Shown: positions 3,012-31,741 of the stretch, piece by piece
Numbering within the stretch: the first letter of the stretch is position 1
Layout of the letters: each line of letters opens with the position of its first letter
NCBI GenBank assembly: GCA_022563755.1
Contig: JADFMT010000005.1
Span: 1 to 37,788, forward strand
Direction: 5' to 3'
Length of the DNA: 37,788 nt
DNA from: Patescibacteria group bacterium
GTDB taxonomy: Bacteria; Patescibacteriota; Minisyncoccia; HO2-45-28
Translations under genes and position numbers: made by a program
Notes under the pieces: generated by a model
Seen by the model: the letters and a program-made list of their open reading frames with translations, nothing else
Told to the model about the DNA's origin: nothing
The model's database searches: none

Positions 3012-3131
3012 ATGGCAAAAAGAAAAACAGGAGTGGGGAAGATGAAGAAGTCGCGTTCAAAAAAGACCAAAAAACGGCTTGCGATAAAGCGTGAGATGTT
3101 GGCAAGAAAGGCCAGCAAACGGCGCAAGTAG
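3012..3131 (+). CDS. Very basic 39-aa microprotein, copy 2 of 3
   Basis: This copy encodes MAKRKTGVGKMKKSRS and ends KASKRRK. It differs from copy 1 by a few substitutions and has its own upstream sequence with TAAGAT as a possible -10. Identity with copy 3 runs past the stop codon (TAGATCTATTT in both), so the duplicated unit is larger than the reading frame. It sits between TypA and the sugar dehydrogenase. Proximity to a ribosomal GTPase gene would suit a ribosome-linked role, but the other two copies lack such neighbours. Confidence 0.7.
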   Translation: MAKRKTGVGKMKKSRSKKTKKRLAIKREMLARKASKRRK

Positions 3132-9354: not shown

Positions 9355-9471
9355 ATGGCAAAACGAAGTACAGGAGTAGGGAAGAAGAAGTCGCGTTCAA
9401 GAAAGACCAAAAAACGGCTTGCGATAAAGCGTGAAATGTTGGCAAGAAAGGCCAGCAAACGGCGCAAGTAG
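9355..9471 (+). CDS. Very basic 38-aa microprotein, copy 3 of 3
   Basis: The product starts MAKRSTGVGKKKSRSRK and ends KASKRRK. The ORF track starts it at 9286, but the extra 23 codons are translation of the inserted hairpin. The ATG at 9355 aligns with the starts of copies 1 and 2. It carries a one-codon deletion relative to the others. Whether the insertion silences it or simply gives a longer leader is unknown. It runs convergently with nothing and precedes the ATP-grasp gene by about 200 bases. Confidence 0.7.
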   Translation: MAKRSTGVGKKKSRSRKTKKRLAIKREMLARKASKRRK

Positions 9472-9675: not shown

Positions 9676-10602
9676 ATGGCAAAAATACTAATTTGCTGTC
9701 CTTACGATGGCCTTGCAGGTTTAAAAAAGTCCCTGGAAAAATTTTCTAAAAGAAACGATTTTATATTTTCAGATAGAGATATTGTTGCCATTGATGATAA
9801 TGCTATCTATGTCGGAGAAAAAGCAGAAAAACATGATTTAAAAAGCTTTAGCAATGCATTTATTAGATATCCCTACGACCTCATTGAACCCCATACACGA
9901 AATTATACAAAAAGAGAAGATACGGAGTTTTTAAAAACACTCGCACTCTTATTCTCTGATATAGGTTTAAACAACATAAAAAGTGCACACTTTGCTAGAA
10001 ATAGATTTTTCTCTCTCAGCAAGGCAAAAGAGTGTGGTCTAAAAATACCACGATCATTCCTCTTAAGAAAAAACGATGTTGATATAGCGTTACCAGATGA
10101 ACTGATTTCAAAAAGTCTCGGTAATTGTTATTTTTCTGAGCTATTACCCCAAAATACAGATTCTTATATAAGAAAAATTCTATCTCGTGAAGACGATGCG
10201 GGAGATACGGCTTATATTTACTCGCCACACATTATTTTATCAAAAAGCGAGATACAGAAGCACATAGAAAGTTTCGGTTCTTGTTTTCTGCAGAGTAAAA
10301 TAGAGGGGGAAGAATATCGTGTCTTTATTGTGGAAAAAGAAATATTTACCTATAGAAGAAAAGCCGTGGAGTCCTTGGATAAGAGCTCGGCTGGACTAAT
10401 TTTTACAGAAACAAGGTTGCTGAATAAATATAAGGGCAGATTTCAGAAATTACGCAAAAAACTAAATTTAACCTACTTATGCCTCGATGTGATTTTTGAA
10501 AAAGATTTATTTGTCATAGATATTAATCCTTTCGGTTCTTTTCCAGCATATAACAAATATCCAAGGGTTACCGATGCTTTATCAAAATTACTTCTTAGTT
10601 AA
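9676..10602 (+). CDS. ATP-grasp ligase resembling graspetide synthetases (MvdC/MvdD type)
   Basis: The 308-aa layout matches ATP-grasp enzymes that make omega-ester or omega-amide crosslinks in graspetides (microviridin type), themselves related to RimK. The N-terminal part has AFIRYPYDLIEP, equivalent to the W-x-R-R-P region. Then come SAHFARNRFFSLSKAKECGLKIPRSF, matching the A..K..QL..A...GL.IP.T block, then EGEEYRVFIVEKEIFTYRR, and finally CLDVIFEKDLFVIDINPFGSFPAY with the Mg-binding D.NP. Base composition is more AT-rich than the surrounding genes. The stop overlaps the next gene by 29 nt, indicating co-translation. No precursor peptide was found, so substrate is open: a peptide encoded elsewhere, a protein tail or a small molecule. 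Confidence 0.75.
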   Translation: MAKILICCPYDGLAGLKKSLEKFSKRNDFIFSDRDIVAIDDNAIYVGEKAEKHDLKSFSNAFIRYPYDLIEPHTRNYTKREDTEFLKTLALLFSDIGLNNIKSAHFARNRFFSLSKAKECGLKIPRSFLLRKNDVDIALPDELISKSLGNCYFSELLPQNTDSYIRKILSREDDAGDTAYIYSPHIILSKSEIQKHIESFGSCFLQSKIEGEEYRVFIVEKEIFTYRRKAVESLDKSSAGLIFTETRLLNKYKGRFQKLRKKLNLTYLCLDVIFEKDLFVIDINPFGSFPAYNKYPRVTDALSKLLLS

Positions 10603-11176
10603 TGTGCGTAAAGAGATAGAAAATAAAATACAATCTTTTTGCACGGCAGTTGTAGATAAAAGAGTCGCCTCAGTGTTGCACCTAAGAGGTTTATTTAACG
10701 AGAGTGTTATTAAGGAAACAAGAGAATATTTAACTTCACTAAAATATGAGCCGTTTAAGAACGAGAATAAAATTAATCGATACGAATCTTTTATAAATGA
10801 GGTAGAAATATCAGCCGCTCAATTTCAGAAAGAAGCCATTTTATTAATAGAGAAATATTTATCTATAAAACCCTTATTCAAATTTGAATACTACGCCTTC
10901 AAACAGAAAAAAGGTCACAGTATTCCAAAACACAAAGATAAAGATAGACATCAAATTGTTTCCATGTTTTATGCAGGTTCCTTTACCGGCGGTGAATATG
11001 TTTACTGGTTTAAAGGGCGAAAAAAGGTCCTATCTTTAAGGGAAGGGAGTATGCTTCTTGGCATTAATCAATTACACAAAAAGTTTATCGGCGTAGAGCA
11101 TGAGGTCAATAAAATAACCTCTGGGGAACGCTTAGTATTAGCAATAAGTTTGTGTAAACCGAAGCCCGCATCATAA
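10574..11176 (+). CDS. 2-oxoglutarate/Fe(II)-dependent oxygenase (prolyl-hydroxylase-like)
   Basis: The 200-aa product carries the complete facial triad of the 2OG-Fe(II) family: His120 and Asp122 in PKHKDKD, and His176 in GVEHEVNKITSG. Arg186 in GERLVLAISL would bind 2-oxoglutarate. FTGGEYVYW forms the typical strand after the HxD motif. It should hydroxylate or otherwise oxidise a protein, peptide or small substrate using O2. The ATG lies inside the ATP-grasp gene; a GTG at 10604, just after that gene's stop, is an alternative start. The shared low GC and tight overlap tie the two enzymes into one pathway, possibly acquired together. Confidence 0.85.
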   Translation: MLYQNYFLVNVRKEIENKIQSFCTAVVDKRVASVLHLRGLFNESVIKETREYLTSLKYEPFKNENKINRYESFINEVEISAAQFQKEAILLIEKYLSIKPLFKFEYYAFKQKKGHSIPKHKDKDRHQIVSMFYAGSFTGGEYVYWFKGRKKVLSLREGSMLLGINQLHKKFIGVEHEVNKITSGERLVLAISLCKPKPAS

Positions 11177-11199: not shown

Positions 11200-11223
11200 A
11201 CGGGAGCGATAAAATGCTCCCGT
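11200..11223. terminator. Hairpin after the ATP-grasp/oxygenase pair
   Basis: ACGGGAGC and GCTCCCGT form a perfect 8-bp GC-rich stem with an 8-nt loop 24 nt after the oxygenase stop. There is no clear T-run, so termination or 3'-end protection is inferred from position. Confidence 0.5.
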
Positions 11224-11854: not shown

Positions 11855-12352
11855 ATGGAAGTCCAAGTTCATCCACAGAATGGCGCCCCATTCGCCGGCA
11901 TGAAACTGGCGAAGGGAGCGATACTACAGCAAGACGATGTCTACAATTCGACGGCTGGTGTATGGGAACAGTGTCCATGTCCGGGACTAAAGCTCGGTGC
12001 GACCTCGACAATCTGGGTGCGGCCGAGGACAGAGCTTTCCGAGAACGCCCGGTTGTTGTTGGGTTATCTCAATCTACGCGGTGGTGATCTTTACGGATGC
12101 ATCGCAGAGCGGAATGGCACCTACTACGTCATACCGAGCCCGAGCTTCAACTGGGACAGTCGGCTCGAGCTGTTGCGGGTGCGGTATCCAGAGTGCATCC
12201 GAGAACTCGTCGACTACGGCTACCTGACCTATGGGGAGCATCCGACGGCCGAATGGCACCCGGATTACTCGCCGGCGGGCATCTGCGTCAGCAACAGCGT
12301 CTACACGCTCACGGAAGAAGGTAAGCATGAAGGTGCGAATATACTGGCTTAA
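11855..12352 (+). CDS. GC-rich orphan gene, possible winged-helix protein
   Basis: I do not recognise this 165-aa protein. Its DNA is far richer in G and C, especially at third codon positions, than any neighbour. The middle and end suggest a winged-helix DNA-binding fold: LSENARLLLGYL, then an alternating stretch, then ECIRELVDYGYLTYG and SNSVYTLTEEGK, which looks like the wing strand. Three cysteines near CPCPG and GCIAE are not arranged as an obvious zinc site. It has its own -10, a strong Shine-Dalgarno and a double terminator, forming a self-contained cassette. Recent transfer is the simplest reading of the composition. Other long frames over it (11997, 12074, 12097) are shadows caused by high GC. 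Confidence 0.7.
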   Translation: MEVQVHPQNGAPFAGMKLAKGAILQQDDVYNSTAGVWEQCPCPGLKLGATSTIWVRPRTELSENARLLLGYLNLRGGDLYGCIAERNGTYYVIPSPSFNWDSRLELLRVRYPECIRELVDYGYLTYGEHPTAEWHPDYSPAGICVSNSVYTLTEEGKHEGANILA

Positions 12353-29893: not shown

Positions 29894-31741
29894 ATGAAAC
29901 AAAGCACCAAGGTTCCTTTACTCGTTTATGACGGCGAATGCAGTTTTTGTCGTCTGTGGGTTGAGCGATGGAAGGGGTTAACGGGAGGACGCGTTCGGTA
30001 CGCGCCTTTCCAAGAAGTTGCAAACGATTTTCCAAAAATCCCGCTTGAAAAATTTGAGCAGTCCGTACAGCTCATAGTGTCTTCAGGTGATGTATTCAGT
30101 GGTGCGCATGCTGCATTTCAGGCTCTTGCGTATGCTCCAGGCAAGGGATGGATGCTTTGGATATACAAATATATTCCAGGGTTTTCTACTGCTTCAGAAT
30201 GGTTCTATCGTCTTATAGCAGCACATCGCCCTTTTTTCTATAAGCTCACTCGACTTTTGTGGGGAAAGCACGTTGGGCGTTCTTCCTACGTTCTTGCGCG
30301 ATGGATATTCTTAAGACTTCTGGGCATTATTTATTTTATTGCCTTTATATCACTTTGGATACAGATTACGGGATTGGTCGGGGGCAGCGGAATCTTGCCT
30401 GAAAATAATTTTTTAAACGCAGTCAAAGATAACATTGGTGCCAAGGGCTTTTGGTATGTCCCAACGCTTGCATGGTTAAGCGCTTCTAATGGTTTTTTAG
30501 AGTTTTTAACCTTAAGCGGAGCGCTTTTGTCTCTTTTCGTTGTTGCCGGAGTTCTCGTAGCCCCGGTTTTGGCCGTACTCTGGGTTTTTTATCTTTCGCT
30601 TTTTAGCGTTGGTCAAGTTTTTTTATCATTTCAGTGGGATATTTTACTTTTAGAGGTTGGGTTCTTGGCTGTTTTCTTGGCACCTCTCCAAGTTTTACCT
30701 AGGCTTTCTCGGGTATCACCCCCATCGTCACTCGTTGCGTGGCTTTTTCATTTTCTTTTATTCCGGCTGATTTTTGGATCAGGCGTCGTTAAACTCGCGA
30801 GCGGCGATCCTACGTGGAGGAATTTTACTGCACTCAATTTTCACTATTTTACCCAGCCACTGCCCAATCCCATTGCATGGTATGTGCATCAATTGCCGGT
30901 TTGGTTTCAAAAAGTTTCCGTAGCAGGTACATTTGCTGTCGAACTTTTTGTGCCTTTTTTAATTTTTGCGCCGCGCCGTCTCAGATTTTTTGCTGCTTTC
31001 TCAATAATCTCTTTAGAAACCTTCATTCTTTTAACCGGCAATTATACCTTTTTTACTTTTTTAACGATCGCGCTATGTATTTTGTTGCTTGATGATGCGT
31101 TTTTGCAGCGGTTTTTACCAAAGAAGCTCCGAAAGTCCTTTTCGGAAACGCTTGCTCGGCTGCAAAGGTCCTCGAAAAAGACTTTTGGAGCTTTTATTAT
31201 TCTTCTTGCCATCGTTATTATAGTTGCAGGCAGCATTCGGATTATAGGATTGTTTTCACCCTTGCCAAAACCGGTTATTCAATTTCAGAGCGTGCTTGCA
31301 CCCTTACGGATCGTAAATAGTTACGGCCTTTTTGCGGTTATGACAACGTCACGATCCGAAATTATTGTAGAAGGTAGTAGGGACGGCGAGACATGGTTGG
31401 AATACGAGTTTAAATATAAGCCCGGAGATGTTAAGCGAGCGCCACCTTGGGTAGCACCCCACCAACCTCGTCTGGATTGGCAAATGTGGTTTGCCGCACT
31501 CGGTGATTATCAGCAAAATCCCTGGTTTACGAATTTTATGATCCGACTGCTTCAAGGTTCTCCGGAAGTTACCCGACTGCTTGAGAAAAATCCATTTCCG
31601 GTTATACCCCCTCGCTACATTCGCGCATCTCTCTACGATTACACATTCACTGACTTTGAAACCAAGCGCGCTACGGGCGCCTGGTGGCAGCGCGAACTAA
31701 AAGGACTCTATTTCCCGGTTGCTTCGTTAGAAGGGGTGTGA
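29894..31741 (+). CDS. DCC (DUF393) - lipase maturation factor fusion
   Basis: The 615-aa product begins with a DCC/DUF393 thioredoxin-like domain (LVYDGECSFCRLWVERW, residues about 9-25, with the CxxC). From about residue 135 it is a lipase maturation factor family membrane protein: SYVLARWIFLRLLGIIYFIAFISLW, GGSGILPENNFL, FQWDILLLEVGFLAVFLAPL, RLIFGSGVVKLASGDPTWRN, FEYKPGDV-type EFKYKPGDVKRAPPWVAPHQPRLDWQMW. About eight to ten helices are visible. In animals LMF1 helps fold lipases in the ER; bacterial function is open. The fused redox domain suggests help with disulfide chemistry of exported proteins. Confidence 0.9.
   Translation: MKQSTKVPLLVYDGECSFCRLWVERWKGLTGGRVRYAPFQEVANDFPKIPLEKFEQSVQLIVSSGDVFSGAHAAFQALAYAPGKGWMLWIYKYIPGFSTASEWFYRLIAAHRPFFYKLTRLLWGKHVGRSSYVLARWIFLRLLGIIYFIAFISLWIQITGLVGGSGILPENNFLNAVKDNIGAKGFWYVPTLAWLSASNGFLEFLTLSGALLSLFVVAGVLVAPVLAVLWVFYLSLFSVGQVFLSFQWDILLLEVGFLAVFLAPLQVLPRLSRVSPPSSLVAWLFHFLLFRLIFGSGVVKLASGDPTWRNFTALNFHYFTQPLPNPIAWYVHQLPVWFQKVSVAGTFAVELFVPFLIFAPRRLRFFAAFSIISLETFILLTGNYTFFTFLTIALCILLLDDAFLQRFLPKKLRKSFSETLARLQRSSKKTFGAFIILLAIVIIVAGSIRIIGLFSPLPKPVIQFQSVLAPLRIVNSYGLFAVMTTSRSEIIVEGSRDGETWLEYEFKYKPGDVKRAPPWVAPHQPRLDWQMWFAALGDYQQNPWFTNFMIRLLQGSPEVTRLLEKNPFPVIPPRYIRASLYDYTFTDFETKRATGAWWQRELKGLYFPVASLEGV

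Follow-up and report, generated by a model that had tools for sequence, protein, structure and literature searches.

The window, a stretch of 37,788 nt that is one whole contig of a 781-kb CPR genome (100% complete, 47 contigs), contains overlapping genes for a graspetide-synthetase-like ATP-grasp ligase and a 2OG-Fe(II) oxygenase, which we read, with a probability of about 0.5, as a horizontally acquired two-enzyme module that would ligate and then hydroxylate a peptide or protein encoded elsewhere. We favour this reading because the genes overlap, run in the same direction and share an atypical composition, because the ligase lies nearest to peptide macrocyclases in three comparisons (NCBIfam, hhalign, and Foldseek), and because the ATP/Mg residues of the ligase and the cofactor residues of the oxygenase are kept, with corallotide (PMC13097080) as a precedent. 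In such a module, the ATP-grasp enzyme, whose predicted fold is related to that of MvdC/MvdD-type synthetases, would phosphorylate a side-chain carboxylate at the expense of ATP and would then form an amide or ester bond on its substrate, while the co-expressed oxygenase would add a hydroxyl group to a residue of that substrate, by analogy with CorC acting after CorB in corallotide. The substrate could be encoded elsewhere in the genome or could be a host protein.

The gene pair and its setting

The locus comprises the following features:

9676..10602, plus strand: divergent graspetide-synthetase-like ATP-grasp ligase, 308 aa (complete ORF, ATG start)
10574..11176, plus strand: 2OG-Fe(II) oxygenase, 200 aa (complete ORF, ATG start; HxD...H...R complete)
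10574..10602, plus strand: 29-nt overlap between the ATP-grasp and oxygenase CDSs (from the ORF coordinates)
11200..11223, no strand: GC-rich hairpin just 3' of the oxygenase gene (read from the sequence)

Both ORFs and their 29-nt overlap, described in an earlier note on this DNA, were reconfirmed. The overlap suggests co-expression; with an alternative oxygenase start, an in-frame GTG at 10604, the genes would lie without overlap. The hairpin has a T-run for minus-strand transcription only and is therefore a possible transcript end. The pair had also been described as AT-rich against its surroundings, which holds: the G+C content is 0.332 for the ATP-grasp gene and 0.333 for the oxygenase gene (third positions 0.27 and 0.31, respectively) whereas 28 other genes average 0.426 (sd 0.029, minimum 0.374), and the two are the most AT-rich of the 31 genes in the window. 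The pair is probably foreign and may have been acquired horizontally. Its neighbours are ordinary (a GH130 phosphorylase, a cold-shock protein, a MauE-like protein, MFS transporters, BipA, UPF0182, and others), and family scans of the window's main genes found no C39 peptidase, peptide ABC exporter or HlyD protein, nor any other biosynthetic genes adjoining the pair. The size of the genome, like the 0.5-1.4 Mb of others in its phylum, is consistent with the CPR assignment made in the earlier note.

A 165-aa ORF without a family (11855-12352, plus strand; G+C 56.6%, third positions 65%) sits 3' of the AT-rich pair and the cold-shock gene, with one partial, interrupted relative in another genome, which suggests that the region around it collects foreign genes.

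Family, fold and residue comparisons of the two enzymes

No Pfam family scored above its cut-off for the ATP-grasp protein. The top NCBIfam match was TIGR04192 (GRASP_w_spasm, grasp-with-spasm peptide maturase; 26.8 bits vs. a cut-off of 230), and further scores were 21.3 bits for TIGR04187 (GRASP_SAV_5884, cut-off 350), 18.7 for MvdC and 18.6 for MvdD (both far under their cut-offs), and 12.4 for rimK_fam (cut-off 143.4), so that neither RimK-type membership nor any of the curated graspetide synthetase cut-offs (MvdC/MvdD, TIGR04184/04185/04187/04192) was reached. Profile comparison with hhalign gave 97.3% (E 1.8e-11) against 14 graspetide synthetases and 23.9% (E 8.4e-4) against 6 RimK-like proteins, the RimK-like profile being shallower. 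The AF2 model (pLDDT 73.9, pTM 0.77; poorly modelled in the mid-protein stretch 152-185) has the MvdD-type pre-ATP-grasp plus ATP-grasp fold, and in Foldseek ranks 1-27 were all solved graspetide synthetases, with ArgX and RimK directly after. The best PDB matches were AMdnB, MdnC, CdnC, and PsnB, and together with MdnB and PruB, also matched, they share with the ligase a predicted whole-length fold (TM about 0.6-0.7) as well as ATP and Mg residues. Since the AF2 input alignment consisted mostly of graspetide synthetases, matches to graspetide-type folds are favoured.

At the residue level the ligase is very divergent, with an identity of no more than 20%, and of 12-17% to the solved graspetide synthetases. 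It retains ATP/Mg residues (K146, Q206, R215, D271, D282, which is Glu in most, and N284) and has no RimK-type DFRxN stretch. The D-x-R motif, invariant in 14/14 aligned graspetide synthetases, occurs nowhere in the protein, and Arg110 replaces a conserved Lys that is kept by 13 other alignment rows. In a tree against MvdC/MvdD and RimK, as the earlier note had proposed, the ligase fell on the same side as the graspetide synthetases where these split from RimK, at the end of a branch of 3.7-3.9 changes per column; grouping with RimK was not rejected (p-AU 0.37), so the tree does not tell a graspetide-side position from one beside RimK and gives no firm placement. The name graspetide-synthetase-like is hence kept as a statement of resemblance, not of membership: in profile, NCBIfam, and fold comparisons the protein is nearer to graspetide synthetases (MvdC/MvdD, PsnB, CdnC) than to RimK or small-molecule ligases, and because of the absent DxR, Arg110, the long branch and the unrejected RimK grouping we call it graspetide-like and do not file it as a graspetide synthetase.

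The oxygenase had been called complete, and all of its cofactor residues are indeed present, i.e., HKD at 120-122 (H120, D122) and, within HEVNKITSGER, H176 and R186, which align with those of annotated 2OG oxygenases. An HMM built from 3-4 independent 2OG proteins, with the window protein left out, scored it at 28.6-34.0 bits vs. ≤ 9.5 for 999 shuffles. Its sole match in single-protein searches was PHROG_13746 (E 2e-4), and no Pfam 2OG family matched it directly; three weakly similar phage/plasmid proteins match PHROG_13746 at E 1e-32 or better and PF13640 weakly, and have GxxIPKHxD...RH...GG...HxVxxVTxGxR in common with it. Judged by these sequence matches, the oxygenase is related to PHROG_13746 and to oxygenases of the PF13640/prolyl-4-hydroxylase type. 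PHROG_13746 oxygenases (Pseudomonas phage D6, Xanthomonas phage XaC1, and a Pseudoalteromonas plasmid) show the same core pattern but are single-domain proteins of 109-116 aa, whereas the window oxygenase is ~90 residues longer at its N-terminus and adjoins an ATP-grasp gene. The single-sequence model of its fold (pLDDT 51) is too low in confidence for a double-stranded beta-helix call.

Recurrence of the pair and search for partner genes

No close homologue of the ATP-grasp protein was found in 55 relatives, 380 same-phylum genomes, phages, plasmids, viral contigs, and one GTDB contig scan, the only relative from these searches being a Flavobacteriaceae grasp-with-spasm enzyme (25% identical). 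For the oxygenase, 55 relatives, 240 same-phylum genomes, phages, plasmids, and viral contigs yielded no close homologue and weak matches only, and PHROG_13746, searched across 287 same-phylum genomes, matched in the window only. The graspetide-synthetase profile had strong matches (E ≤ 2e-18) in 10/287 same-phylum genomes; none of these ten strong CPR graspetide loci had a 2OG neighbour of the window type, nor did any 2OG neighbour occur around ~45 ATP-grasp loci of graspetide or RimK type, taken from CPR genomes, plasmids, and viral contigs. The earlier note had suggested collecting homologous pairs and looking for a recurring small ORF beside them; as no close homologue was found, neither a recurring pair nor such an ORF could be demonstrated. 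A second ATP-grasp/oxygenase pair was absent from every collection searched, so the functional linkage of the two genes rests on one locus. Another divergent ATP-grasp with a grasp-with-spasm-like C-terminus was seen in a genome of the same class (L035:7190-8149), where it adjoins glycosyltransferase-like genes and has no evident precursor.

The flanks of the pair contain no plausible small precursor ORF, in agreement with what had been noted for the adjacent gaps, unlike two control CPR loci in which convincing precursor-like ORFs are visible. The surroundings of the ATP-grasp gene yielded neither a leader peptidase nor an ABC/HlyD exporter nor a DUF6624 partner. DUF6624, frequent in several graspetide groups (PMC13097080), is absent from the window's genome; in another CPR locus, the gene adjoining an ATP-grasp weakly resembles it.

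The sole convincing small gene near the pair (9355-9471) encodes a basic protein of 38 aa. It is one of three plus-strand copies (225-344, 3012-3131, and 9355-9471) of a very basic 38-39 aa protein (MAKRSTGVGKKKSRSRKTKKRLAIKREMLARKASKRRK) that are 89-95% identical and have mostly unrelated flanks. Homologues (63-79%) occur in four other genomes, and the tested window copy has no match in Pfam, NCBIfam or PHROG; it looks like a small conserved multi-copy gene. As a precursor candidate this ORF was rejected, since it is present in three copies in the window and has homologues in four genomes that have no match to the window ligase, which does not fit a dedicated precursor.

Known systems and alternative readings

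In corallotide from Corallococcus exercitus, a graspetide synthetase (CorB, TIGR04187) joins Lys and Asp, after which a 2OG oxygenase (CorC, PF13640) hydroxylates the Lys delta-carbon (Carter et al. 2026, PMC13097080); the same study cites a further graspetide cluster with the oxygenases SmaO and SmaX. Like the window, the corallotide locus combines a graspetide-type ATP-grasp with a 2OG oxygenase, but it also has a large adjacent precursor that contains KxxxD repeats, as well as a beta-lactamase-family protein, both missing here, and the window ligase is remote from the CorB family (TIGR04187, above). Makarova et al. 2022 (PMC8939145) reported graspetide clusters from CPR bacteria, in some of which no precursor could be identified. 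The loci of their branches 1 and 2 share a graspetide-type ATP-grasp with the window, and many in branch 2 also have no identifiable precursor; unlike the window, these CPR loci encode cluster-23 proteins, frequently together with precursors, peptidases or SPASM/methyltransferase genes. The word "oxygenase" is absent from that paper. Coupled crosslinking and hydroxylation had been put forward as a new modification logic in CPR bacteria. This is unsupported, since corallotide is an experimentally studied precedent for pairing a graspetide-type ligase with a 2OG hydroxylase and CPR graspetide clusters with precursors are published; the strong profile matches in ten same-phylum genomes likewise speak against novelty. 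Rather than in the general logic, the particular interest lies in how far the DxR-less ligase has diverged and in how rare the pair is.

Several observations count against the two-enzyme module: no precursor, peptidase, exporter or DUF6624 was found, DxR is absent, position 110 is Arg, the RimK grouping has a p-AU of 0.37, the AF2 alignment is rich in graspetide synthetases, the pair is a single locus, and the oxygenase model reaches a pLDDT of only 51. Some of them fit a RimK-like ligase whose target, for amino-acid addition or crosslinking, is a housekeeping protein (e.g., a ribosomal one) which the oxygenase also hydroxylates. With such a substrate no precursor gene would be expected, and none lies within the flanks; 2OG oxygenases acting on ribosomal proteins exist, the tree allows a position beside RimK, and ArgX and RimK come next in the fold list. 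The rimK_fam score (12.4 of 143.4 bits), the hhalign preference for graspetide synthetases and the absent DFRxN stretch argue against this account, which we consider unlikely, although we rank it first among the alternatives.

ATP-grasp ligases and 2OG oxygenases co-occur in small-molecule clusters too, and the missing precursor and DxR motif of peptide-acting relatives would also suit an amino-acid or dipeptide ligase whose partner acts as a hydroxylase on a free amino acid, an arrangement found in some toxin and antibiotic clusters; with peptide macrocyclases as top family and fold matches and no biosynthetic genes adjoining the pair, we think this improbable. Slightly lower still we place the idea that the genes are the remnant of a foreign cluster, decaying or stranded, imported without precursor, peptidase and exporter and now functionless. 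The atypical composition, the loss of DxR and Lys110, the lack of any partner gene found and the occurrence of the pair in this genome only, among those searched, would agree with decay, but neither reading frame is broken or truncated, and the oxygenase has kept all its cofactor residues. As for the preferred two-enzyme module, a bolder form, in which a deeply divergent, DxR-less ATP-grasp and a 2OG hydroxylase modify an unlinked peptide or host protein in a CPR bacterium via an undescribed linkage, appears doubtful to us.

Tiny symbiotic bacteria have few biosynthetic genes, so the persistence of a foreign ligase-hydroxylase pair may point to a modified peptide or protein with a role in host contact. 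Should the pair act without a linked precursor, it would offer a route to crosslink and hydroxylate a protein substrate.

The window also encodes a protein that combines a lipase maturation factor (LMF1) domain with a DCC1-like thiol oxidoreductase domain at its N-terminus (29894-31741, plus strand), unexpected at such a small genome size.
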